Positions 36,132 to 55,124 of a stretch of 64,000 bases of DNA are shown here, piece after piece. Both the position numbers and the translations under genes were made by a program. This DNA is from Proteiniphilum saccharofermentans (GTDB lineage: Bacteria > Bacteroidota > Bacteroidia > Bacteroidales > Dysgonomonadaceae): contig NZ_LT605205.1 in assembly GCF_900095135.1 (NCBI RefSeq), forward strand, positions 1,736,001 to 1,800,000, given 5' to 3'. The notes beneath the pieces were generated by a model. That model searched no databases and was not told the origin of the DNA. It was given only the letters and a program-made list of their open reading frames with translations. Numbering within the stretch: the stretch's first letter is position 1; every line of letters starts with the position of its first letter.

Positions 36132-36695
36132 TTAAAGAAGGGCATGTAGGTAGTCGGCAGTATCTTTCAGCCCGTTTTTTCTTAAACAGTCCAACACTTC
36201 ATATTCATCTAATTCAGGATTTTTTTTGTTAAGCACCATCTCTTTGAAAGCCTCAACCGCAATTTCAGTATTCAAGTCAATGATATCCGTCAGAAAATCA
36301 TCGGGTGTTTTAATTTTCAGGCCATATCTATCCAGAACATCTTCCGGAAAATCCTTTATATTGTTTGAAACAATTACATGTGCATTCGTTTTGATAGCTG
36401 CGGCCAATACATGCCTATCTTTTTCATCCGGCAATTCAAGATGATCAATAAGGGTTTCGTAATGTGTCACCAAAGCATCGGGAAAGGCATTGTTCAGGTT
36501 GAGTGTACGTTTTTCTGATTCATCTGGTGAAACTCCTTTTCTATGCATCACGTCCTTCCATTCATCAAAAATATGATTACTCCATTTTGGAGTATACATA
36601 TCATAATAGGCAAACCAGAGAAGAAGGTCTCTGATAATTACCGGATAAATCACATTGGTATCCAGGACTGCCGTAAATCGAACGCTATGAATCAT
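36132..36695 (-). CDS. PIN-domain toxin (VapC-like)
   Basis: 187 residues. PIN ribonuclease acidic residues are visible: Asp in VLDTNVIYP (about 12), the middle acidic pair in HIFDEWKD, Asp in DEKDRHVLAAAI, and the late SNNIKDFP. These toxins cut RNA in the cytosol. The length exceeds that of minimal VapC (about 130), with a helical C-terminal extension. The start overlaps the antitoxin stop by 11 bp, so translation is coupled. Confidence 0.85.
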   Translation of the reverse strand: MIHSVRFTAVLDTNVIYPVIIRDLLLWFAYYDMYTPKWSNHIFDEWKDVMHRKGVSPDESEKRTLNLNNAFPDALVTHYETLIDHLELPDEKDRHVLAAAIKTNAHVIVSNNIKDFPEDVLDRYGLKIKTPDDFLTDIIDLNTEIAVEAFKEMVLNKKNPELDEYEVLDCLRKNGLKDTADYLHALL

Positions 36696-37140
36696 AAAGC
36701 CCTAGATCTTCATCTGCATGCATCATCTCGATGAGCCGTTTCTTTTGCTCCTCTTTCATTTTCTTTTTGTAGTCAATCACATCCTCATATTTAATGCGAC
36801 GATGTTTTCCTACTTTTGTATATTCAATTTTTCCCTCCTCTAGTAATTTCACGAGATAGGGTCTTGAGCATCCCAAAATCTCTGAAGCTTTTTGAGTTGT
36901 TACTTCCGTTGCAATAGGTACTATTGAAATAGGTTTACCCTGACTCATTGCCTTTAATATTTCGCCTAATAAATTCAATGCTTTTACAGGAAGAATAATT
37001 CTCTCACCGGTCTCTTCAATTTCAATTTCGGCCTGGTCCGATTTTAACTGTTCAATCGAGGAAATGAGAGAAGTGTAAGACTCCTGTGCTAATTTTCGCT
37101 CACGTTTATTAGGTCTTCTTATCTCATTTGTCGTTACCAT
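36685..37140 (-). CDS. Excisionase-type HTH antitoxin partner of the PIN toxin
   Basis: 151 residues. An N-terminal linker region (to about 85) is followed by a MerR/excisionase-like helix-turn-helix, TTQKASEILGCSRPYLVKLL, with the recognition wing VGKHRRIKYEDV. The protein probably represses its own promoter and binds the PIN toxin through the C-terminal helix. The operator-like sites upstream fit this. Confidence 0.82.
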   Translation of the reverse strand: MVTTNEIRRPNKRERKLAQESYTSLISSIEQLKSDQAEIEIEETGERIILPVKALNLLGEILKAMSQGKPISIVPIATEVTTQKASEILGCSRPYLVKLLEEGKIEYTKVGKHRRIKYEDVIDYKKKMKEEQKKRLIEMMHADEDLGLYDS

Positions 37141-39034: not shown

Positions 39035-41050
39035 TTAGAGATCAGCTTTCTTCCAATTATTAGAATCAGTCACACCCGCTTTTCGATAATCAAAAGGCTT
39101 AAAATTTATTTTACTAATATTTGTTGTACTCTTAAACGTAAAATCTTTGGCTTCAGGATTCCGAAAGAGAGGATCCATAACATAAGAATGAATATCTTTT
39201 TTATTCTTATTCTTCCATTGAGTGATGGAGCTATTATAAAACTTAACATCTTGTTGACGTGGATTCCAATAGATATTCTTATCCGCGATAAAATTAGCAA
39301 TATCCCATCCTGTTCTATCGGATAACTTTCCGGTAGTAAAATAAACAATATTATTCGTAAACGTGAAAGAATTATGTTCCTCTTTTCGGGAAACCTCTAA
39401 CTGACTGTTTACTTGATTGGCAAAAATATTATTCCTGACGATGTTGTTTTTCCCGTAATGCTGGTGAAAACCGGCACTTTTACAATTATACACCAAATTA
39501 TTTTCAATTAAGATATCAGATGAGCCTTCATCCAAATAAATTCCCCAGCCCCGAAAATCATTCGAAAAAACATCATGAATGACATTATTACTTATTTCAG
39601 TTCCAGGCGAAGGACCTAGAGTATAAATTCCTCCCAAATCGCTTAATTGTGAAAATCCCAGATGATGAATATGATTATAGATAATTTTATTATTTTTTGC
39701 TACACTGTTTCTATATCCCCATACCCAACCAACAGAAACTCCCGAATAGTAAAAATAAGATATTTCATTATGCGAAATAGAGTTGCTTCCAGAGTGGAAT
39801 ACGGTCACCCCTATCCCTGTAGGGAGCTCAAAACCTCCTCGTGTGATGATATTATTTTCCACTATGGTATTACTCGTTTCAAATTTACTATTGGCGGGTG
39901 GAACAATATCCCCTATCTTAATACCTCCAACTCCTAAATCATGTATATAAGAATTAATCACTTTCACATTATTGCATCCTTTTCTTATCCAAATAGCATT
40001 ATTACTCACGTTACCAATTTCACAGTTATCAAAACTTACGTTCTCAGAAAAATTAAGAGTAATAGCAGCAGAAGTAGGAGAGGCAGCTTGAGCGGGCATA
40101 TCCCCATGAGCAGGCATTATGCGATTTGTATGCTGAAACGAAATATTTTTAAATGCGATGTTCCTCACCTTGTTCCCGGTCGTTCCTTCTATTTTCAGCA
40201 ACTCGCCTAACAAAGGAATTTCCACGGTTGTACTGGAAAACACTTCACCGGCACGAGGTACATAATATAATATGTTTTTATCATCGATAAACCACTCTCC
40301 GGGAGCATCCAAAAAGCTCTTATCATTTTCAAAATAAAACTGCGATGCCATGCCCAATTTAGTCCAATCGGCAAAGAGAGATGTTTCCAATTGAATTGAT
40401 TTTGTTGTGTTGGATGAGTTTTTTATATGTGCACGTGTTCTGTTCCACTGATGATTAAATGCTGCCAAAATATATTTCTTATTCTTTGCAGCACTGAACG
40501 TGTTCCATTGTTCGGGAGTCAAATAAACGGTGTGGTTCGATTTTTTATTGGGTTTATCTTTTACTTCTTCTGTCTTTAATGTAGTATAAAGATTATCAAT
40601 ATTGGGTGTTCGGGCAAGCGTAGCTCTTTTTCCATTTACAAAAATTTGCTGCACGGCAACTTTGTTATTCCTTAAAAAAGTTGAGAGGTCTAAGGTCCAA
40701 AAATTACCGGCGCGTTTTGTGAATTTCCCCGCGGAAACACTCCCTTTAATAACAGGCATATTCTCTTTTTCGCCTTCAACAACCAAGTTATTAGTTCCCC
40801 GCCAAAGAGCGGGATTTATTTCTATGGGTGCATCAAGAATGTATTCCCCACTTGCTAATATTATTTTAATCTCTTTCTGATTGCCGCTTCGGTAATTTGA
40901 GGCAGTTGTCATTGCCTTTTTTATGCTTTTAAACGGGCGATCTTTGCTACCATTATAACTATCATTACCGGCATTTGAAACGTAGATTTGACTGTAAATT
41001 AATGAACTATTACTTATCATGATAAGTATAAAAATGAATATTTTTCTCAT
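39035..41050 (-). CDS. Secreted right-handed parallel beta-helix protein
   Basis: 671 residues with a signal peptide (MRKIFIFILIMISNSSLIYS). The mature N-terminus IYVSNAGNDSYNGS and PFKSIKKAM, then about ten Asn-rich coils such as SNTIVENNIITRGG and ENNLVYNCKSAGFHQHYGKNN, are typical of parallel beta-helix (PbH1) carbohydrate-active enzymes. It may be a lyase or epimerase acting on the polysaccharide in the periplasm. Embedded in the capsule operon, it is probably a tailoring or trimming enzyme. The exact activity is unknown. Confidence 0.8.
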   Translation of the reverse strand: MRKIFIFILIMISNSSLIYSQIYVSNAGNDSYNGSKDRPFKSIKKAMTTASNYRSGNQKEIKIILASGEYILDAPIEINPALWRGTNNLVVEGEKENMPVIKGSVSAGKFTKRAGNFWTLDLSTFLRNNKVAVQQIFVNGKRATLARTPNIDNLYTTLKTEEVKDKPNKKSNHTVYLTPEQWNTFSAAKNKKYILAAFNHQWNRTRAHIKNSSNTTKSIQLETSLFADWTKLGMASQFYFENDKSFLDAPGEWFIDDKNILYYVPRAGEVFSSTTVEIPLLGELLKIEGTTGNKVRNIAFKNISFQHTNRIMPAHGDMPAQAASPTSAAITLNFSENVSFDNCEIGNVSNNAIWIRKGCNNVKVINSYIHDLGVGGIKIGDIVPPANSKFETSNTIVENNIITRGGFELPTGIGVTVFHSGSNSISHNEISYFYYSGVSVGWVWGYRNSVAKNNKIIYNHIHHLGFSQLSDLGGIYTLGPSPGTEISNNVIHDVFSNDFRGWGIYLDEGSSDILIENNLVYNCKSAGFHQHYGKNNIVRNNIFANQVNSQLEVSRKEEHNSFTFTNNIVYFTTGKLSDRTGWDIANFIADKNIYWNPRQQDVKFYNSSITQWKNKNKKDIHSYVMDPLFRNPEAKDFTFKSTTNISKINFKPFDYRKAGVTDSNNWKKADL

Positions 41051-47393: not shown

Positions 47394-48389
47394 TTATAGA
47401 GGTGTTCCCTTGCTTATGTCTTTTTTGGCAACTTCATTTAAGAGTTTTGAAAAATATTTAGGATGCAACCCATGTCCCGGCCTTACTGAACGAATATTTT
47501 TTTCCGTAAAAATCTCGCCTGCTTTAATATTCTCTGCTGCAAATAGCGAACGCCTTCTTAGTCGGTTTTTTTCGGTAAGTTCGTAAGTAACACTACCCAA
47601 TGCCAAATGGGCTTCTCTTACCGCTTTTACCATTTCTGCAAACTCGTTTGGCTCCATTGAAAACGCGGAGTCAATACCACCTAAACTTCTATCCAATATA
47701 AAATGCTTTTCCACAACCGTTGCTCCCAATGCCACTGCTGCAATAGGGACGGTGCAGCCCATGGTGTGATCGGATAAACCGACCCGCACCCCAAAACGCT
47801 TCTTCATATCGGGAATTGTAAGCAAATTAGCCATTTCGGGCGTTGCCGGATATTCCGACGTACATTTCAATAACGTAACGTCTTTATTCCCATTTTTCTC
47901 ACAAGTTTCAAGTGCCAATTGAATGTCTTGTTCATCGGCCATGCCGGTAGATATAATCATCGGTTTTTGTTTAGAAGCCACATAACTTATTAACGGAATA
48001 TCCGTAATCTCTGGGGATGCGATTTTATAAATGGGATTATTGATTGTTTCCAAAAAATCCACATCTTTTGTAGCAAAAGGAGCGGAAAAAAAAACAAGCC
48101 CATTATCAACAGCTGTTTTTTGCAATGTTTCGTGCCATTCAAATGGCAAGGCTCCTTGCTGATATAACTCAAAAAGTCTTCGCCCTTTCCACAGGCCATC
48201 CTTTCGAGGCCCGAAAAATTCATTGTCCACATCAAGCGTCAAAGAATCCGCCGTAAAGGTTTGCACTTTCACCGCGTCGGCTCCGGAACGGGCAATCGCC
48301 TCTATTGTTTTTATGGCTAACGCCAAATCATTGTTATGATTGGCTGAAAGTTCGGCTACAATAAACAATTCCTCTTTTATCTTATTCAT
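47394..48389 (-). CDS. pseI: Pseudaminic acid synthase
   Basis: 331 residues from the ATG at 48389, directly after the pseG stop; the longer start at 48425 would overlap it. NeuB-family TIM barrel: FIVAELSANHNNDL, ADAVKVQTFTADSLTLD, KIASPEI and GLSDHTMGCTVP, then a C-terminal antifreeze-like SAF domain (about 270-331). The FTADSLTLD wording fits PseI rather than NeuB or LegI. It condenses the 6-deoxy-altrose derivative with phosphoenolpyruvate to Pse. Confidence 0.9.
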   Translation of the reverse strand: MNKIKEELFIVAELSANHNNDLALAIKTIEAIARSGADAVKVQTFTADSLTLDVDNEFFGPRKDGLWKGRRLFELYQQGALPFEWHETLQKTAVDNGLVFFSAPFATKDVDFLETINNPIYKIASPEITDIPLISYVASKQKPMIISTGMADEQDIQLALETCEKNGNKDVTLLKCTSEYPATPEMANLLTIPDMKKRFGVRVGLSDHTMGCTVPIAAVALGATVVEKHFILDRSLGGIDSAFSMEPNEFAEMVKAVREAHLALGSVTYELTEKNRLRRRSLFAAENIKAGEIFTEKNIRSVRPGHGLHPKYFSKLLNEVAKKDISKGTPL

Positions 48390-48391
48390 AG

Positions 48392-49402
48392 CTATAATTT
48401 CTCTAAAATATCTACAACCCTGCAAATTCCTTGTGTATCCAATATGCGCTTCGCTTTTTGAGACATGGCTGCCAACTTTTCCGTATTGTTAATCAAAGAA
48501 TTTAGTGTAGCGTTAAACGTCTCTTTGCCTAAATCGTCAATAAGCCCCAGATCGTATATGGCACCGGTTTTCGCGGACAATATCCTTAACGCTTCCGCAT
48601 TGGATTTCTGATGTCCGATGCCGATAACGGGCATTCCCAAACACATAAACTCATAGGCGCTCACGCCAAAAGAGGCTATAAGCAGATCGTATGTTACTAT
48701 TTTACCGGTAGAATATGGTAAAAAAGAAACATAATCTTTCAGTTTCTCCGGAATATTATTTTTATATAAATAATCGTTTCCATAAAAAAACGCGACCTCA
48801 ACCTGCTGCGATATGTTTCCCTCATCCAATATTTCGTACAAAGTAAGCAATATATTCCGAGGATCGCTACCTCCGGCTGTAACCGCTATTTTATTAACAG
48901 ATTTGTCTTTCTCGAATGTCAAGGAATCATATTTTTCTATTTCTTTATTGAATGTAAAATATTCAAGACCTTTATATACAACCGTACCGGAGTTTTCAAA
49001 AGGAGCAAAAAAAGCGTCATCTTGATGGATGGAAGGTAAAATAAAAACATCTGCCAATACCTTGGCATCCGTCAGGTTTTGATAAAAAATAACTTTGGCT
49101 GTTTTTTTTATTTCTTGAATAAATTGCGGACTAAATTGAATGATACCATCTGCATAAAAAACAGCTGCTTGTTGATCCCTGCAAATTGATATCATATCGT
49201 TTTCGGCAGTTTCAGGAAACAACTCGTAATGCTTAAAAGGAAAATCTTTTAAATTATCCCAGAATTCAGAAGCCTGATGTACAAATAATATTTCGTATCC
49301 TCTATCCTTAAGCGTCAAAGCTAAATTCAAGCTACGATAATAATGTCCCAATCCGACTTGACCACCGGCATCAACACGAAAAAGTATTTTTTTCTGCATC
49401 AT
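48392..49402 (-). CDS. pseG: UDP-2,4-diacylamido-trideoxy-altrose hydrolase
   Basis: 336 residues, GT-B-like hydrolase. FRVDAGGQVGLGHYYRSLNLA at the N-terminus and AVTAGGSDPRN in the middle, then ASFGVSAYEFMCLGMPVIGI, match PseG. It removes UDP before the PseI step. There is no fused GNAT domain, so it does not supply the missing PseH activity. Tightly spaced with pseI and the acyltransferase. Confidence 0.88.
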   Translation of the reverse strand: MMQKKILFRVDAGGQVGLGHYYRSLNLALTLKDRGYEILFVHQASEFWDNLKDFPFKHYELFPETAENDMISICRDQQAAVFYADGIIQFSPQFIQEIKKTAKVIFYQNLTDAKVLADVFILPSIHQDDAFFAPFENSGTVVYKGLEYFTFNKEIEKYDSLTFEKDKSVNKIAVTAGGSDPRNILLTLYEILDEGNISQQVEVAFFYGNDYLYKNNIPEKLKDYVSFLPYSTGKIVTYDLLIASFGVSAYEFMCLGMPVIGIGHQKSNAEALRILSAKTGAIYDLGLIDDLGKETFNATLNSLINNTEKLAAMSQKAKRILDTQGICRVVDILEKL

Positions 49403-49405
49403 TTT

Positions 49406-50062
49406 TTACTCCACACTTCCAATCTGTCGTGCAGGATTACCAACCATTTTCGCAAAGTCTGGCACATCTTTCAACACAACTGCTCCAATACCGCATATAG
49501 ACCATTTCCCCAATGTGATAAACTCCAATGTGGAGGTGTTGGTCCCTAAATAAGCCCCTTCCTTAAGATGAACATCCGCTCCAATACAGGCATTGTTAGC
49601 AACATAACTGTAATTATCGAGTTTAGCTCCATGTCCGACTAAGGCTTGGGCATAAATTTGAACATGATTTCCAATTACAGTATTGGGACCTACCGATACA
49701 AAAGGTTGAATACATACGCCATGTCCTATTTTAGCAAATTTAGAAATTACGGCCGTTGGATGTATAACAGTGGCAAAACGCTCTTCCGGAATTTGCAAAT
49801 CGAGGAGTTTATGCAAAAACTTATGGTTCATTTTTACGGAAATCAGCGTATAGAAAAAATAGACATCCTTATCAGGCAAGTAACGGTCAACCGTTTCTTT
49901 GTCTATTTTACCCAAAACCGGATATCCATTAATGGGTTCGGTCTCTCTGTCATTTAAAAAACCAAGAATTTCCCATTCCGGCTTTACGGCATTGATGTCT
50001 TCTACGGTTGATTGTACAACAGTGCCATTGCCATAGCCACCCATAATGATAAGTTTTTTCAT
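49406..50062 (-). CDS. PglD/NeuD-like sugar acyltransferase (left-handed beta-helix)
   Basis: 218 residues. N-terminal Rossmann-like domain (IIMGGYGNGTVV, LGFLNDRE) and C-terminal hexapeptide repeats (IGHGVCIQPFVSVGPNTVIG, ACIGADVHLKEGAYLG) define the NeuD/PglD family. PglD uses an acyl-CoA to acylate the 4-amino group of UDP-amino sugars. As no GNAT-type PseH is in the operon, it is the best candidate for that step. Its start overlaps the CoA-lyase stop by 4 bp. Confidence 0.82.
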   Translation of the reverse strand: MKKLIIMGGYGNGTVVQSTVEDINAVKPEWEILGFLNDRETEPINGYPVLGKIDKETVDRYLPDKDVYFFYTLISVKMNHKFLHKLLDLQIPEERFATVIHPTAVISKFAKIGHGVCIQPFVSVGPNTVIGNHVQIYAQALVGHGAKLDNYSYVANNACIGADVHLKEGAYLGTNTSTLEFITLGKWSICGIGAVVLKDVPDFAKMVGNPARQIGSVE

Positions 50063-50946
50063 GCCTGCTTAGTAATTATTTGTTCGTGTTTTCTTAAAAT
50101 TTTCTTTGCTTTTGCCACAAACGGAGGCCCTATGAATTTACCGTTCATTATCGCCACTCCTCTTCCTTCTTTTCGAGCTTCCTCATCAAGTCGCAACATC
50201 TCTCTCGCGTTTTCAACCTCTTCTTCCGAAGGAGAAAAATATTGATGAATAAGAGGCAATTCAATGGGATTAAGCGCCATCATGCCTCCAAAACCCAATT
50301 TGCGGGAAATATTTAAATTAACTTCTAAATCCTCCAAGTCTTTTACTCTTACGTGAACTGTATCAATCGGCTCAATATTGTTTGCACGAGCTGCCATGGC
50401 AATCATTGCACGTGGAGTGAATAAACTTTGATGCTCCTCGTCATGAACGCCTTGTAAATCATTAATAAAATCTTCGGAACCATAAGCTATGGCTATAACT
50501 CTCGGAGACGATGTGCATATTTCCTGCACATTCATCACGGCAGAAGCCGTTTCTATTAAAGGTATAATTTTGAAAGTACCTTTTGGTATTTCTTTTTCAT
50601 ATTCAATAGTCTCCAACAATTTATCAAAGAAGTAAATATCTTCTCCGCGCTTTGCTTTGGGATACATAAAGCCTGTTACTCCTCTCACGGCTAATTGTGT
50701 AACATCCTTTAGCAAATGCCCGCTTTCCCGGTCATTTATTCTTGGAAATATTACTCTTCCTTCAAAAATTCCTTCGTTGAGTAACTCTACCACTTTATTT
50801 CGGGCTGCTTGTTTGTTCTCGGCAGGTTGCACGCTGTCTTCTATATCAAACAAAAGAATATCGGCATCCGATTTTGCTGCGCTGCGCATAAATTTCTCGT
50901 TATGAGCAGGGACAAACATCAGACTTCGCATTAGAAAATCAGTCAT
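50059..50946 (-). CDS. CitE-like CoA-ester lyase 1
   Basis: 295 residues, HpcH/HpaI aldolase/citrate lyase beta family. SLMFVPAHNEKF, ILLFDIEDSV (metal-binding Glu/Asp), IPLIETASAVMN and AIAYGSEDFINDLQG are visible. Such enzymes cleave or form beta-hydroxyacyl-CoA thioesters (for example malyl-CoA). The start overlaps the MaoC stop by 8 bp and the stop overlaps the acyltransferase start. Presence inside a Pse operon is unusual; supply of an acyl donor is inferred. Confidence 0.82.
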   Translation of the reverse strand: MTDFLMRSLMFVPAHNEKFMRSAAKSDADILLFDIEDSVQPAENKQAARNKVVELLNEGIFEGRVIFPRINDRESGHLLKDVTQLAVRGVTGFMYPKAKRGEDIYFFDKLLETIEYEKEIPKGTFKIIPLIETASAVMNVQEICTSSPRVIAIAYGSEDFINDLQGVHDEEHQSLFTPRAMIAMAARANNIEPIDTVHVRVKDLEDLEVNLNISRKLGFGGMMALNPIELPLIHQYFSPSEEEVENAREMLRLDEEARKEGRGVAIMNGKFIGPPFVAKAKKILRKHEQIITKQA

Positions 50947-51406
50947 TTTGATTGCTTTTTTGGATTAATACTTTTCTTCTAAAACTCAGCACATCTTCTC
51001 CACGCTGATTATATCCGATGGTTTCTACATACACAATACCTCTATCGCTTTTCGAGCGCGATTCTCTTTTATCAAGAACCTTCGTACGGGCATATATGGT
51101 ATCGTTTATGAACACGGGAGCCAAGTGCTTTACAGATTCATACTCCAAATTAGCAATGGCTTTGCCGCTAATATCCGGCACAGTCATCCCCACTACAAGA
51201 CTAAACACCAATGTTCCAACAACCAGTATCTGTCCGTGTTGCTGATTTGCTGCATAATCGATATTGGTATGAACAGGATGATGGTTCATTGTGAGTAAAC
51301 TAAAAAAATTATTGTCGCTTTCAAAAATGGTTTTCGATAAAGCGTGCTCTATCACCGAACCCACTTCAAAATCTTCGAAATAATTTCCTAAATTAGATGT
51401 TTTCAT
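50939..51406 (-). CDS. MaoC-family acyl-CoA (de)hydratase
   Basis: 155 residues, single hot-dog domain. FEDFEVGSVIEH at the start, then TMNHHPVHTNIDYAA where classic R-hydratases have GDxNPxH; the usual Asp appears as Asn, so the chemistry may be altered or the subfamily distinct. The later VVGMTVPD and FINDTIYARTKVL strands are typical. It would hydrate or dehydrate a short acyl-CoA handled by the flanking lyases. It overlaps both neighbours (8 and 14 bp). Confidence 0.82.
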   Translation of the reverse strand: MKTSNLGNYFEDFEVGSVIEHALSKTIFESDNNFFSLLTMNHHPVHTNIDYAANQQHGQILVVGTLVFSLVVGMTVPDISGKAIANLEYESVKHLAPVFINDTIYARTKVLDKRESRSKSDRGIVYVETIGYNQRGEDVLSFRRKVLIQKSNQND

Positions 51407-52220
51407 TATAGTAATTTAAAATTTTTGCTGCACGCCTTAAGTGTGGCTTTTCTATTATTACTCCATCAATAACTACCGGATTAAACTCATCCGCTTTTCC
51501 TTGTGTTTGTTTGAATGCATCCTCTACTCCGTGTGCCCAAGCCAGTTCATCGGTGCTGTAAAGTTTTATGCTTTTGAGTACTTCAAGCTGTTTAGGATGT
51601 ATATATAATTTCGCATCAAATCCTTTATACACGCCATCCTTTATTTCTGCCTCCAAACTTTGAGTATCTTGTAATTCCATGGAAGCAATATCTATAGCCT
51701 TAACATGGATCATTCGGGCTAAATATAAAATCTGCAATCGAAAAAACTCTAAATTTCGCAAGGAATGCACTCCGCCCACCGTATTCATAAAGTCATGACT
51801 TCCTACAGCTACGCCCGAAATAAACTTTTTATATTTCAATAATAAGTCTTTTGCCTCCAAGAGTAAGCGAGGCGTTTCAACTAACAGAATGATTGCAGGG
51901 GAAAAGTTTACAAAATAAGAGTGTATGAATTCAAAATCCTCCAAAGAGGATATTTTTGGAAAAACCAACTTACGAAATCCGTTCTCAAGAAGGGATAGCA
52001 ATAGTTGAGCATCTATCTTTCCTTGATAATCATAAAGAGGTATCCGTATATAGTATTCTTTATAATTTATATCGTCGGATAATAAACGTGATAAAATCAT
52101 CTGTCTGTCGGAAGCCTTCACGGCATCTTCCAAATCAATAATAATTTCATCAACGCCTAACGCTTTTATTTTATCAATATTGCCTAACTTGTATCCCGGG
52201 ACAAAAAAATAAGAGTCCAT
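51393..52220 (-). CDS. CitE-like CoA-ester lyase 2
   Basis: 275 residues, same superfamily as lyase 1 but clearly diverged: SYFFVPGYKLGNI, EIIIDLEDAVKA, ILLVETPRLLLEA, GVAVGSHDFMNTVGG and KLYIHPKQLEVL. The metal-binding Glu and Asp appear conserved. Two non-identical lyases around a MaoC gene recall the lyase/hydratase pairs of C4-C5 acyl-CoA pathways. It starts 2 bp after pseF. Confidence 0.8.
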   Translation of the reverse strand: MDSYFFVPGYKLGNIDKIKALGVDEIIIDLEDAVKASDRQMILSRLLSDDINYKEYYIRIPLYDYQGKIDAQLLLSLLENGFRKLVFPKISSLEDFEFIHSYFVNFSPAIILLVETPRLLLEAKDLLLKYKKFISGVAVGSHDFMNTVGGVHSLRNLEFFRLQILYLARMIHVKAIDIASMELQDTQSLEAEIKDGVYKGFDAKLYIHPKQLEVLKSIKLYSTDELAWAHGVEDAFKQTQGKADEFNPVVIDGVIIEKPHLRRAAKILNYYNENI

Positions 52221-52222
52221 TT

Positions 52223-52897
52223 TTATCCTTTCAGAAGTTTAAACTTCAATTCAGCCATTTGCCAATCTGTTTCATTGTCAATATCCTGACATTCCATTTC
52301 CGATATCTCAAAACCGAATCTATTGTTTCCTTTCAACCCTTTGTCTGATCTCATCCAATAAAACATACCTGCATCGTGAAAAGCCGGTTTTAAGTCCTGA
52401 GAACGTGTCCGGTAACATTCCGGATAAAACATACTGACAGACCCTTCTGCATCCATCATAAAAGCCCTTTGTACGGGATAGCCAAAACGTACAACCGGAC
52501 GTACAGAATCGGCTTTTTTTGCTATTAATTCGTTAAGCCCGCACTGCAAAAGTTCCTTTGTCAGCAGTGGCGAAGTTGCCAGAATACAGCAAATATGCTC
52601 AAACTCTACCTTATGCGAAGCATAGATGTTTTTCACCTCTTCAATCACATCAGATAGAGAAGCAGTATCATTTGCCGTTTTTTCACTTCGCATAAAAGGC
52701 ACAGAAGCTCCATATCTTTTTGCAATATCGGCTATCTCTTCGTCATCTGTCGACACCATTACTTCCTCAAATAATCCGGATTGTAATGCTGTTTCAATAG
52801 AGTAGGCAATAATTGGCTTTCCCAGAAAGTCTTTAATGTTTTTTCGGGGAATTCGTTTGCTTCCTCCACGTGCCGGGATAATAGCTAAATTTTTCAC
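52223..52897 (-). CDS. pseF: Pseudaminic acid cytidylyltransferase
   Basis: 224 residues. The CMP-nonulosonate synthetase motif IPARGGSKRIPRKNIKDF is at the N-terminus, with SVETALQSGLFEEVMVSTDD-type SIETALQSG and VSTDDEEIA following. It activates Pse with CTP to CMP-Pse. Lacks the second domain of NeuA, as expected for PseF. Located between pseC and the CoA-lyase genes. Confidence 0.9.
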   Translation of the reverse strand: MKNLAIIPARGGSKRIPRKNIKDFLGKPIIAYSIETALQSGLFEEVMVSTDDEEIADIAKRYGASVPFMRSEKTANDTASLSDVIEEVKNIYASHKVEFEHICCILATSPLLTKELLQCGLNELIAKKADSVRPVVRFGYPVQRAFMMDAEGSVSMFYPECYRTRSQDLKPAFHDAGMFYWMRSDKGLKGNNRFGFEISEMECQDIDNETDWQMAELKFKLLKG

Positions 52898-52899
52898 TT

Positions 52900-54105
52900 T
52901 TAGTTACTGTAAAATTCGTCGATTGTCTTTATTACGTATTGTTGCTCTTCGGAAGTCAGCGTAGGGAACATGGGTAAGCTAATGCAATGTGAATAATAAT
53001 TTTCTGCGTGAGGAAAATCTCCTTCTTTATAGCCGAACTCTTGGTAATAGGGCATCAGATGAGCGGGTATATAGTGTATCTGTGAAAAAATATGGTTTTT
53101 ACGCAAATACAGATATAGGTTCAATCGATCCTTCACTTCCAGCACATAAAGATGATAGGCATGTCCTTCTATATCACCAGATTGACCTAAAATATAAGGC
53201 TTGTCCCTGAATGCCTCACTGTAGATATGGGCTATCTCACGTCTCCGTTCCAATCCCTTATTCGCACGTTTTAATTGACTGGTACCCAAGGCGGCTTGGA
53301 AATCGGTTATCCGGTAATTGTATCCTAATTGCTGCATTTCCATGTACCATCCGGGATATTCGGTTTCATCTTTATATCCTCCGGAGGCCAATTCAATAGA
53401 GTTTATATATGGGTAAACATTATCACCCTTTGTGATTCCATGTGTACGGAGCAATGTTAATTTATGGAATAACTCTTCGTCGTTTGTTGTTACCATGCCT
53501 CCTTCTCCACAGGCAATATGTTTTACCGGATGGAAAGAGAAAATAGACAAATCTGCAAAATTTCCGTTTCCGCAAAATTGCTTATGGTTATTTGAGTCAA
53601 GAAAAAATCCACCAGGAGCGTGACAGGCATCTTCAATGATCCAAAGGCCATATTCGTTCGCCAGTTCCTTATATGCTTCCAGATTTACAGCTCTACCGGC
53701 AAAATCAACCGGAATAATCCCTTTGTAAGTTCCTTTTGGCGAAGATTCTAATAAAGCTTTTACAGAATTGATATTTAATAAGTAAGTTTCAGGGTCAATG
53801 TCTGCAAAAACAACCTCCCCACCACAATAGCGTATACAGTTTGCAGATGCTACAAATGTAATAGGAGTTGTAATCACTTTGTCGCCAGGTTTTATCCCCA
53901 AAGCCATGGCACATAAGTGCAATGCAGCTGTTCCATTGGATACCGCAACGGCATATCTACAACCGATATATTCGGCAAATACTTTTTCAAACTCGGCTAT
54001 TCTAGGCCCTTGTGTAAGATAGTCGGACTGTAGGGCTTCGGTTACAGCGGTAATATCCTCGTCTGTGATATGTTGCCGTCCGTAAGGTATAGGTTGTTTA
54101 GACAT
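52900..54105 (-). CDS. pseC: UDP-4-amino-4,6-dideoxy-altrose-type aminotransferase
   Basis: 401 residues, DegT/DnrJ/EryC1 PLP enzyme. IPYGRQHITDEDI and YLTQGPRIAEFE at the N-terminus; the PLP Lys lies in SFHPVKHIACGEGG; GYNYRITDFQAALG is present. It aminates the 4-keto product of PseB. It follows pseB by 2 bp, a classic pseB-pseC pair. Confidence 0.93.
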   Translation of the reverse strand: MSKQPIPYGRQHITDEDITAVTEALQSDYLTQGPRIAEFEKVFAEYIGCRYAVAVSNGTAALHLCAMALGIKPGDKVITTPITFVASANCIRYCGGEVVFADIDPETYLLNINSVKALLESSPKGTYKGIIPVDFAGRAVNLEAYKELANEYGLWIIEDACHAPGGFFLDSNNHKQFCGNGNFADLSIFSFHPVKHIACGEGGMVTTNDEELFHKLTLLRTHGITKGDNVYPYINSIELASGGYKDETEYPGWYMEMQQLGYNYRITDFQAALGTSQLKRANKGLERRREIAHIYSEAFRDKPYILGQSGDIEGHAYHLYVLEVKDRLNLYLYLRKNHIFSQIHYIPAHLMPYYQEFGYKEGDFPHAENYYSHCISLPMFPTLTSEEQQYVIKTIDEFYSN

Positions 54106-54107
54106 TG

Positions 54108-55124
54108 TTAAACTGTAAAATTAGGATCAACGTATTCTTTTATTTTGCTTCTGAGAGAGTCTATTGTTTCCCACTCAGTATTATCTCCTGAATTGTAACT
54201 AAACCCGTCAGGTACTTTTTTTGCGTTAAAATAAGCAATGTACTCTTCCATTTTCCAAACTGGTTTTTGTGGAAGAATAGTATAATAAGTACCTAAATCA
54301 TAGGTGTGGAAAGCATCTGAAGGTGTGATCATTTCTTCATGAATTTTTTCCCCCGGACGTATGCCAATCACCCGATGTTCACACTCTGGAGCTATCGCCT
54401 CAGCTAATTTCATTATATGATATGAGGGTATCTTTGGTATGAAAATTTCGCCTCCCCAGGCATTCTCCAATGCATAAAGAACCATATCTACTCCTCCTTG
54501 AATGGGGATGTTGAAGCGAGTCATGTGCGGTTCGGTAATGGGGATTACTCCTTCTTTTTTCTTTTTTATAAAAAAAGGGATTACAGAACCGTTGGATCCC
54601 ATCACATTTCCATATCTTACAACCGAAAATTTTATTGGATTACTACCTTTTATATTATTGGCTGCTACAAATAGTTTATCTGATGCCAATTTTGTTGCTC
54701 CGTAAAGATTTATTGGAGCACAAGCTTTATCTGTTGAGAGAGCAACAACACTCTTTACCCCTGTGACTAAGCAAGCATCAATTACATTTTGAGCCCCTCC
54801 AATATTCGTTTTTACGCATTCTGTGGGATTGTATTCTGCAATATGTACATGCTTCATAGCTGCAGCATGGATAACATACTCAATTCCGTTTAAAGCTCTC
54901 GTAAGTCGCTCTTTATCACGTACATCACCGACAAAAAAGCGAATAGCCGGATATTGCGAGTGAGGATACTCTTGGTCCATGACAAACTGCTTTTGTTCAT
55001 CGCGGGAGTATATTACCAATCTTTTTATATTTGGCCATTTTTCAAAAATAGTTTTGGTCAATGCTTTACCCAATGACCCTGTACCTCCAGTAATCAAGAT
55101 ACCTTTACCGTTTAAATCTAGCAT
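54108..55124 (-). CDS. pseB: UDP-GlcNAc 4,6-dehydratase (inverting)
   Basis: 338 residues. Rossmann motif ILITGGTGSLGKAL (about 9-22), AAMKHVHIAEYNP, and the catalytic NLYGATKLASDK. TRFNIPIQGGVDMV in the C-terminal half is diagnostic of PseB. It converts UDP-GlcNAc to UDP-4-keto-6-deoxy-L-AltNAc, committing the sugar to pseudaminic acid. It is the first gene of the Pse operon, about 180 bp downstream of wzz. Confidence 0.94.
   Translation of the reverse strand: MLDLNGKGILITGGTGSLGKALTKTIFEKWPNIKRLVIYSRDEQKQFVMDQEYPHSQYPAIRFFVGDVRDKERLTRALNGIEYVIHAAAMKHVHIAEYNPTECVKTNIGGAQNVIDACLVTGVKSVVALSTDKACAPINLYGATKLASDKLFVAANNIKGSNPIKFSVVRYGNVMGSNGSVIPFFIKKKKEGVIPITEPHMTRFNIPIQGGVDMVLYALENAWGGEIFIPKIPSYHIMKLAEAIAPECEHRVIGIRPGEKIHEEMITPSDAFHTYDLGTYYTILPQKPVWKMEEYIAYFNAKKVPDGFSYNSGDNTEWETIDSLRSKIKEYVDPNFTV

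Follow-up and report, generated by a model that had tools for sequence, protein, structure and literature searches.

The pseudaminic acid (Pse) operon of Proteiniphilum saccharofermentans, which is contained in a window of 64,000 nucleotides (genome positions 1736001 to 1800000), raises the question of how its sugar is N-acylated, as the operon combines a NeuD/PglD-like hexapeptide protein with three genes for CoA enzymes. The antigenicity of surface sugars is partly set by non-acetyl N-acyl groups, known examples of which are N-glyceroyl in Tannerella forsythia and 2-hydroxyglutaryl in Tenacibaculum maritimum, and in many cases it is not known where the acyl donor comes from. With a probability of roughly 0.7, we propose that the operon makes a CMP-pseudaminic acid bearing a non-acetyl acyl chain, in whose synthesis the hexapeptide protein, AcylT, replaces PseH and uses a donor supplied by the accompanying CoA enzymes.

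The ORF listing of the window places all nine genes on the minus strand in the order pseB-pseC-pseF-citE2-maoC-citE1-acylT-pseG-pseI, in agreement with the order and families given by the first-pass annotation of this DNA. The products of pseB (54108 to 55124; predicted inverting UDP-GlcNAc 4,6-dehydratase), pseC (52900 to 54105; 4-aminotransferase), pseF (52223 to 52897, GTG start; CMP-pseudaminic acid synthetase), and pseI (47394 to 48389; pseudaminic acid synthase) each pass the relevant NCBIfam equivalog cut-off, scoring 494 bits against 408 (TIGR03589), 462 against 424 (TIGR03588), 280 against 206 (TIGR03584), and 470 against 340 (TIGR03586), respectively. The mechanical ORF of pseI extends to 48425, with TTG as its start codon; a start at the ATG of position 48389 is likelier. 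Between pseF and pseG lie citE2 (51393 to 52220; CitE/CLYBL-like CoA lyase family protein, PF03328 at 1.4e-17), maoC (50939 to 51406; single-domain MaoC hydratase, PF19315 and PF01575, RipB/Ich at 3.8e-43), citE1 (50059 to 50946; malyl-CoA-lyase-like protein, PF03328 at 3.3e-40), and acylT (49406 to 50062). The overlaps of 4 to 14 bp claimed earlier for these four genes were measured as 14 bp (citE2/maoC), 8 bp (maoC/citE1), and 4 bp (citE1/acylT); pseF and citE2 are separated by 2 bp, and acylT and pseG, which do not overlap, by 3 bp.

AcylT is predicted to be a NeuD/PglD/VioB-like hexapeptide N-acyltransferase (TIGR03570, 145 bits, cut-off 160.8), with its Hexapep and PglD_N domains (PF00132 and PF17836) above the Pfam cut-offs. 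Its His144, which we take to be the catalytic His, is invariant in all four sequences aligned, and it shares 93, 59, and 72% identity with its counterparts at loci L027, L023, and L170, respectively. A profile of the pse-type AcylT (E of 1e-55), applied to 395 genomes of the phylum, matched the genome of origin and G564, whose locus L195 holds citE2-maoC-citE1-acylT (AcylT identity of 41%) and has no pseF, pseG, or pseI within 18.5 kb. The divergent product of pseG (48392 to 49402) scores 78 bits with TIGR03590 (cut-off 153.55); both gene position and the PseG tree support its identity as a putative UDP-sugar hydrolase. In that tree, the PseGs from five loci with a hexapeptide transferase form one clade (100/98; 0 of 500 shuffles equally low), separate from the remaining 19 PseGs compared, a pattern which could be explained by joint inheritance alone.

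That no PseH is visible, as previously noted, was borne out by the GNAT searches, in which PF13302 and PF00583 gave 5 and 15 matches in the genome, respectively, and none within the window, the nearest lying at genome position 1830402, 30 kb beyond it. None of the six genome-wide matches to the PseH model TIGR03585 exceeds the cut-off, which is weak evidence because just 2 of 38 pse genomes yield a match above that threshold; PseH absence was, therefore, rejected as a strong argument. Among 37 fetched Bacteroidales pse loci (from 36 genomes, with 18 of the 37 left unclassified on account of short contigs or lack of resolution), a GNAT match adjoins PseI or lies within 1.5 kb of it in 11 and a formyltransferase takes this place in 5, which suggests that the acylating gene is exchangeable, being a GNAT, a formyltransferase, or a hexapeptide transferase accompanied by a dedicated CoA module. 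The acylating gene of the GNAT and formyltransferase loci is located between pseG and pseI, or is seemingly fused to pseG, whereas acylT precedes pseG, a difference in position which counts against the proposed explanation. Loci L147 and L168 carry a DegT-like/ATP-grasp filling, assigned by likeness; their DegT-like proteins gave no Pfam match above the cut-off.

MaoC and CitE1 most resemble relatives of mesaconyl-CoA hydratase and malyl-CoA lyase, respectively. MaoC is a single domain of 155 amino acids which aligns to each half of its best PDB matches, 4e3e and 8hgn, relatives of mesaconyl-CoA hydratase (Mch); its Asn41/His46 pair corresponds to that in the second half of these proteins, unlike the Asp-His pair of 1q6w, 4ffu, and 6jql. 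It does not have the two domains that define Mch, and it reaches 147 bits with its best NCBIfam model, RipB/Ich, against a cut-off of 340. As CitE1 and CitE2 score 124 and 79 bits with the RipC model (cut-off 375), and no CoA transferase (RipA) occurs among the nine operon proteins, the set falls outside the itaconate RipABC system. CitE1, whose family score is above the Pfam cut-off and whose best PDB match is the malyl-/beta-methylmalyl-CoA lyase 5ugr, retains E132, D159 (both presumably Mg ligands), and R69 (presumably the substrate Arg) in 87 of 87 sequences. At the position of the family's catalytic Asp near the C terminus, which we take to be that of D320 of CLYBL, CitE1 has Gly273, Gly being found in 84 of 87 CitE1 sequences; the loss of this residue counts against donor synthesis. 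CitE2 has Glu257 at the same position, as do 15 of 15 relatives, in alignment with Asp in three of the four chains shown (the three that cover it). Genome-wide, PF03328 has three matches, namely, citE1, citE2, and a 492-amino-acid frame elsewhere that is matched weakly (2.3e-5). A plasmid search with CitE2 returned 19 records, all below 60% identity, the annotated ones as CoA ester lyase, and NF046086 had matches in 6 of 393 genomes.

Co-occurrence of the trio between pseF and pseG, the check suggested for this operon, was found at three further loci. The order citE2-maoC-citE1-acylT-pseG-pseI follows pseF in L027 and in two more distant loci, namely, L023 (genome G090), with one additional gene (436 amino acids) between pseF and citE2, and L196, which belongs to a genome of the genus that includes Tenacibaculum discolor; at all three, as in the window, maoC-citE1 overlaps or abuts upstream of acylT. 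Random insertion of the trio was rejected on the basis of this repeated order. At an E of 1e-60, CitE1 was matched in 2 of 58 genomes of that genus, T. discolor included.

A working set of 83 loci, comprising the best 80 of 256 relatives plus L022, L023, and L026, was then considered; maoC of L045, L049, and L084 was lost to the ORF filter, leaving 80 maoC loci, with apparent redundancy (L026 and L068 represent the same contig stretch, and L036 and L037 are near copies). Among these 80 loci, a CitE gene immediately follows maoC in 79 (median junction of -4 bp), and within six genes of maoC a hexapeptide acyltransferase is present in 69, an AAC(3)-like acyltransferase (family assignment checked for L052) in 6 more, and a DegT aminotransferase in 51; neither acyltransferase type was called in 5, among which L027 does carry one. 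CitE2 is present in 14 of the 80 and absent from 66, and was rejected as an essential part. The maoC-citE1 pair is a general module and the core of the set, with CitE2 optional. Since the acyltransferase varies with sugar context, the four middle genes do not form the strict, integral cassette envisaged in the first-pass annotation.

With sugar-context labels assigned by hand from neighboring genes and mapped onto quick trees (53 rows), the acylT tree required 8 label changes, compared with 18 for CitE1, 19 for MaoC, and a shuffled mean of 24. The acylT tree thus tracks sugar context tightly and the MaoC and CitE1 trees much less, although the CitE1 and MaoC trees also follow it more closely than expected at random (of 200 shuffles, 0 and 1, respectively, gave a value as low) and the poorer resolution of the short, conserved MaoC could add label changes. 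Presence of citE2 (71 rows) changed 4 times on the CitE1 tree, 5 on MaoC, and 9 on acylT, with a shuffled mean of 14. L027 is absent from the context trees because the ORF filter missed its pseF and acylT, which were found by tblastn.

In the proposed pathway, PseB and PseC would produce UDP-4-amino-4,6-dideoxy-AltNAc, while MaoC and CitE1 (here also CitE2) would form a short acyl-CoA from central acyl-CoA, with a small keto acid as the probable partner, CitE-like enzymes being expected to perform Claisen addition or cleavage and MaoC dehydration or hydration. AcylT would place the acyl group on the 4-amine of the hexose precursor in place of PseH, PseG would free the sugar, PseI would add the C3 unit, and PseF would activate the product, in which the acylated amino group would become N-7. 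We infer the direction of the CoA reactions, the use of their product by AcylT, and the site of acylation; gene identities, order, recurrence, module behavior, and the PseG clade are read from the sequences themselves. The earlier suggestion that a PglD-like enzyme moves a special acyl-CoA in PseH's stead gains comparative support from the recurrence in L027, L023, and L196, the two unrelated acyltransferase families, the tree contrast, and the PseG clade, albeit not as one indivisible cassette. A malyl-type chain (beta-hydroxy- or unsaturated dicarboxylic) is our best guess at the acyl group, held tentatively and suggested by the nearest relatives of MaoC and CitE1, the main alternatives being 3-hydroxybutyryl or glyceroyl types.

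One competing explanation is that AcylT is an ordinary N-acetyltransferase which replaces PseH and yields the common Pse5Ac7Ac, the CoA enzymes serving another step or sugar and traveling along. Proteins of the NeuD/PglD subfamily carry the annotation of sugar acetyltransferase, which speaks against a non-acetyl donor, as does locus L170 of genome G360 (pseC-pseF-acylT-pseG-pseI), where the same transferase type lacks an adjacent trio; the maoC-citE1 pair of G360 is located on a different contig (L179), where it is accompanied by an acyltransferase of its own, so that the transferase of L170 may simply transfer acetyl. The pairing of maoC-citE1 with two unrelated acyltransferase families, its position against acylT at four loci, and the separate PseG clade nevertheless render such a passive role quite unlikely. 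Should the module instead supply 3-hydroxybutyryl-CoA or another short monocarboxylic hydroxyacyl-CoA, MaoC acting as an enoyl-CoA hydratase, a Pse5Ac7Hb of known type would result. Many MaoC proteins act as (R)-specific enoyl-CoA hydratases, which favors this possibility; the Asn-His pair of MaoC does not, and a hydratase alone would be enough, leaving unexplained a CitE1 with fully conserved Mg and Arg residues. Also in its favor, N-hydroxybutyryl is listed among Pse/Leg substituents in excerpts of PMC6388019; we consider this outcome unlikely.

Synthesis of N-glyceroyl, as on Pse5Am7Gra of T. forsythia, is a far slimmer prospect, since no simple CitE/MaoC route to glyceryl-CoA is apparent. 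In its favor, excerpts of PMC6120980 give the locus of strain ATCC 43037 as pseB, pseC, pseF, unassigned ORFs, a gene called pseH, another ORF, pseG, and pseI, and state that the glyceroyl gene “remains elusive.” The excerpted descriptions (PMC6120980, PMC6388019) thus resemble the present operon in gene order with extra ORFs and in a non-acetyl N-7 group, as proposed here, and differ in the assigned pseH.

Our preferred reading, that of a dedicated non-acetyl donor, may be set against other known systems. The operon matches the canonical CMP-Pse pathway (PseB, C, H, G, I, F) in its four above-cut-off proteins and PseG-like hydrolase, and departs from it in the hexapeptide protein in place of a GNAT PseH, the three added CoA-enzyme genes, and the below-cut-off PseG. 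The MaoC and CitE-like pair recalls malyl-/beta-methylmalyl-CoA lyase with mesaconyl-CoA hydratase (4e3e, 8hgn, and 5ugr being the nearest solved relatives) and the itaconate enzymes RipB/RipC (Ich/Ccl), from which it is set apart by a MaoC of one domain, the missing catalytic Asp of CitE1, location in polysaccharide loci, and scores far under the RipB/RipC cut-offs. Excerpts of PMC6519341 describe the wfp O-polysaccharide locus of Flavobacterium psychrophilum, also of the Bacteroidota, in which the PglD homolog WfpG is predicted to use ACP-bound 3,5-dihydroxyhexanoyl, a product of the neighboring ketoacyl synthase and reductase genes; dedicated donor genes thus adjoin a PglD-like transferase in both cases, although wfp employs a fatty-acid-type ACP route and a different sugar. 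In line with the first-pass annotation, literature searches for a pathway with this gene set found no description.

It is possible, if short of an even prospect, that maoC-citE1, with CitE2 optional, represents a general, hitherto undescribed Bacteroidota CoA-thioester route to a carboxylate-bearing donor, which here would give a novel nonulosonic acid whose N-7 substituent adds a negative charge; Claisen/dehydratase chemistry by lyase-fold enzymes without the usual catalytic Asp would then serve N-acylation of surface amino sugars. The maoC-citE1 loci adjoin genes for several amino-sugar types, and if the pair marks dedicated donor synthesis across these roughly 80 loci (the best of 256 relatives), such acyl groups would become predictable from genomes.

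The operon consists of nine minus-strand genes running from position 55124 to 47394 in the ORF listing, in the order pseB, pseC, pseF, citE2, maoC, citE1, acylT, pseG, and pseI, with overlaps of 14, 8, and 4 bp among the middle genes, which confirms the order and overlaps described in the first-pass annotation. PseB, PseC, PseF, and PseI each score above their NCBIfam cut-off, while the PseG match is weak (78 bits versus a cut-off of 154). The operon is located within a polysaccharide locus, with a capsule-synthesis-type protein, glycosyltransferases, a family 4 glycosyl transferase (domain search), and a Wzy-like protein scoring barely above its cut-off encoded downstream, and large upstream ORFs which are read as chain-length and export proteins. 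The same locus harbors a toxin-antitoxin-like pair at 36132-37140, composed of a PIN-domain protein (PF13470) overlapping a helix-turn-helix protein (PF12728), and, amid its glycosyltransferase genes, a beta-helix protein with a match to the GH141 insertion domain (39035-41050).

The set citE2-maoC-citE1-acylT between pseF and pseG was found in three loci of other genomes. L027 (Bacteroidia bacterium 43-41; 93% identity for acylT and 77% for pseF) repeats the pse arrangement in full; L023, from a genome (G090) of another family of the same order, carries pseF, one 436-aa gene, and then citE2-maoC-citE1-acylT-pseG-pseI; and L196, a 5,280-base contig from the genus of Tenacibaculum discolor, extends from pseF to pseI (acylT, 83%; pseG, 42%). 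A CitE2 relative at E 1e-20 is present in only 8 of 393 genomes of the order, the host genome included, and neither PseI at E 1e-60 nor CitE2 at E 1e-20 was detected in the five sampled members of the host's own family, an absence in line with what a variable surface-antigen locus would show. The PseG proteins of the five pse loci with a hexapeptide transferase, among them L170, which lacks the trio, form a single clade among 24 PseGs (support 100/98; 0 of 500 shuffles as low), which may point to a hydrolase fitted to an acylated product or simply to joint inheritance of the genes.

Beyond pse loci, a MaoC-profile scan of named genome contigs yielded 256 relatives, of which the best 80 were kept; with three others added and three lost to ORF filtering, 80 maoC loci were counted. 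A CitE gene directly follows maoC in 79 of these (median overlap, 4 bp), and a DegT sugar aminotransferase lies within six genes in 51. Within the same distance, a hexapeptide acyltransferase is found in 69 loci and an AAC(3)-like acyltransferase in 6 more, leaving five with neither called; of these, L027 does carry a hexapeptide acyltransferase, the contig ends close to L035 and to L065, and ORFs in L029 and L064 match acylT weakly by blast. The four genes do not form one integral cassette as proposed on first reading: maoC-citE1 is the core, CitE2 is present in 14 of the 80 loci, and the acyltransferase may be of either type. One representative each bore out the neighbors read as AAC(3)-like, FdtA, sugar transferase, and ATP-grasp. 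Some maoC loci are on contigs whose labels, binning errors aside, read Akkermansia, Lachnospiraceae, Selenomonadaceae, Tissierellia, Delongbacteria, and Omnitrophota.

In L052 (by Pfam for this locus), L063, L073, L091, L096, and L106, the AAC(3)-like gene stands one to two genes downstream of maoC-citE1, where others have the hexapeptide transferase. In the sugar locus L022, a ketopantoate hydroxymethyltransferase gene (PF02548; 11267-12202) follows citE2-maoC-citE1; its product may provide, or modify, a keto acid that goes into the acyl group. L020 (8079-10434; Pfam for this locus only), L021 (3587-5945), and L024 (8185-10579) hold a CitE2-like gene without MaoC/CitE1, flanked by a hexapeptide transferase on one side and by a Gfo/Idh/MocA-type oxidoreductase on the other, a setting read as a 2,3-diamino-uronate pathway in which the CitE2-like protein possibly provides the malyl donor used at the 3-amino group.

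In the PDB comparison, MaoC comes closest to 4e3e and to 8hgn, a structure named beta-methylmalyl-CoA dehydratase; Asn41 and His46 align with Asn/His in the second half of both, whereas Asp/His occupies these positions in 1q6w, 4ffu, and 6jql. The closest structure to CitE1 is the malyl-/beta-methylmalyl-CoA lyase 5ugr, and Arg69, Glu132, and Asp159 of CitE1 are kept in 87 of 87 CitE1 sequences. In 84 of the 87, however, Gly replaces the family's catalytic C-terminal Asp, at a site where all 5 of the 5 chains shown in the alignment have Asp; because this Asp is missing, CitE1 activity is uncertain. CitE2 is nearest to CLYBL, with Glu at the family Asp site in 15 of 15. Judged by the nearest relatives and residue changes of MaoC and CitE1, these two enzymes look suited to CoA esters of dicarboxylic acids, although their catalysis would be altered. 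The first guess for the acyl group is a malyl-type one; marine bacterial polysaccharides are reported to contain amino sugars with 4-malyl amides, as well as a 2-hydroxyglutaryl amide (PMC3210612).

Sugar-context labels taken from neighboring genes change 8 times on the acylT tree, 18 times on the CitE1 tree, and 19 times on the MaoC tree (53 labelled rows; shuffled mean, 24), and 16, 30, and 31 times, respectively, with all labels (71 rows; shuffled mean, 38). CitE1 and MaoC track context beyond chance (on 53 rows, 0 of 200 shuffles reach as low a count for CitE1 and 1 of 200 for MaoC), although far less than acylT does; poorer resolution of the short, conserved MaoC may add to its changes. 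CitE2 presence changes 4 times on the CitE1 tree, 5 on MaoC, and 9 on acylT (71 rows; shuffled mean, 14). Such a pattern is what a donor module moving between sugar pathways, combined with an acceptor-specific transferase, would give.

Against a link between trio and transferase, genome G360 carries the same transferase in pse locus L170 without the trio beside it, its maoC-citE1 being located on a separate contig, where a transferase of its own accompanies it (L179). Of the 38 pse genomes, 5 have a MaoC match at E 1e-15, namely the three with the hexapeptide pse locus and two others; since the trio is in place in two of those three, G360 is the sole independent case, which makes for a weak association.

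Among described systems, the wfp locus of Flavobacterium psychrophilum comes closest in concept: a PglD homolog there is predicted to take its acyl group from dedicated fatty-acid-type genes (PMC6519341). For Tannerella forsythia, PMC6120980 calls the gene behind the N-glyceroyl substituent of Pse elusive and places unassigned ORFs between pseF and pseG. No description of the present gene set was found in searches of open-licence papers, in keeping with the initial statement that none was known.

As first noted, PseH is not apparent: GNAT models PF13302 and PF00583 have no match within the 64-kb window, nor does PseH model TIGR03585 exceed its cut-off anywhere in the host genome (a single contig of 4,414,963 bases). 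This is weak evidence, because PseI passes its cut-off in 38 of 393 genomes and PseH in only 2 of those 38. The NeuD/PglD-like protein is the sole acyltransferase candidate in the operon, its gene preceding pseG instead of lying between it and pseI. Among 37 other pse loci fetched, 18 of which fall outside the classification, 11 have a GNAT match adjoining PseI or at most 1.5 kb away (9 from match positions, 2 added by domain search), several such matches sitting in long frames resembling PseG-GNAT fusions. A formyltransferase gene (PF00551) lies between pseG and pseI in five (L142:4024-4605, L143:3902-4774, L144:7593-8459, L153:3998-4603, and L169:8289-8924), which predicts N-formyl pseudaminic acid in those Bacteroidales. 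Two loci appear, from a reading of their sequences, to have a DegT-like/ATP-grasp pair, and one, L170, has a hexapeptide protein of the type described here. Given these variants, pse loci of Bacteroidales have an exchangeable acylating gene.
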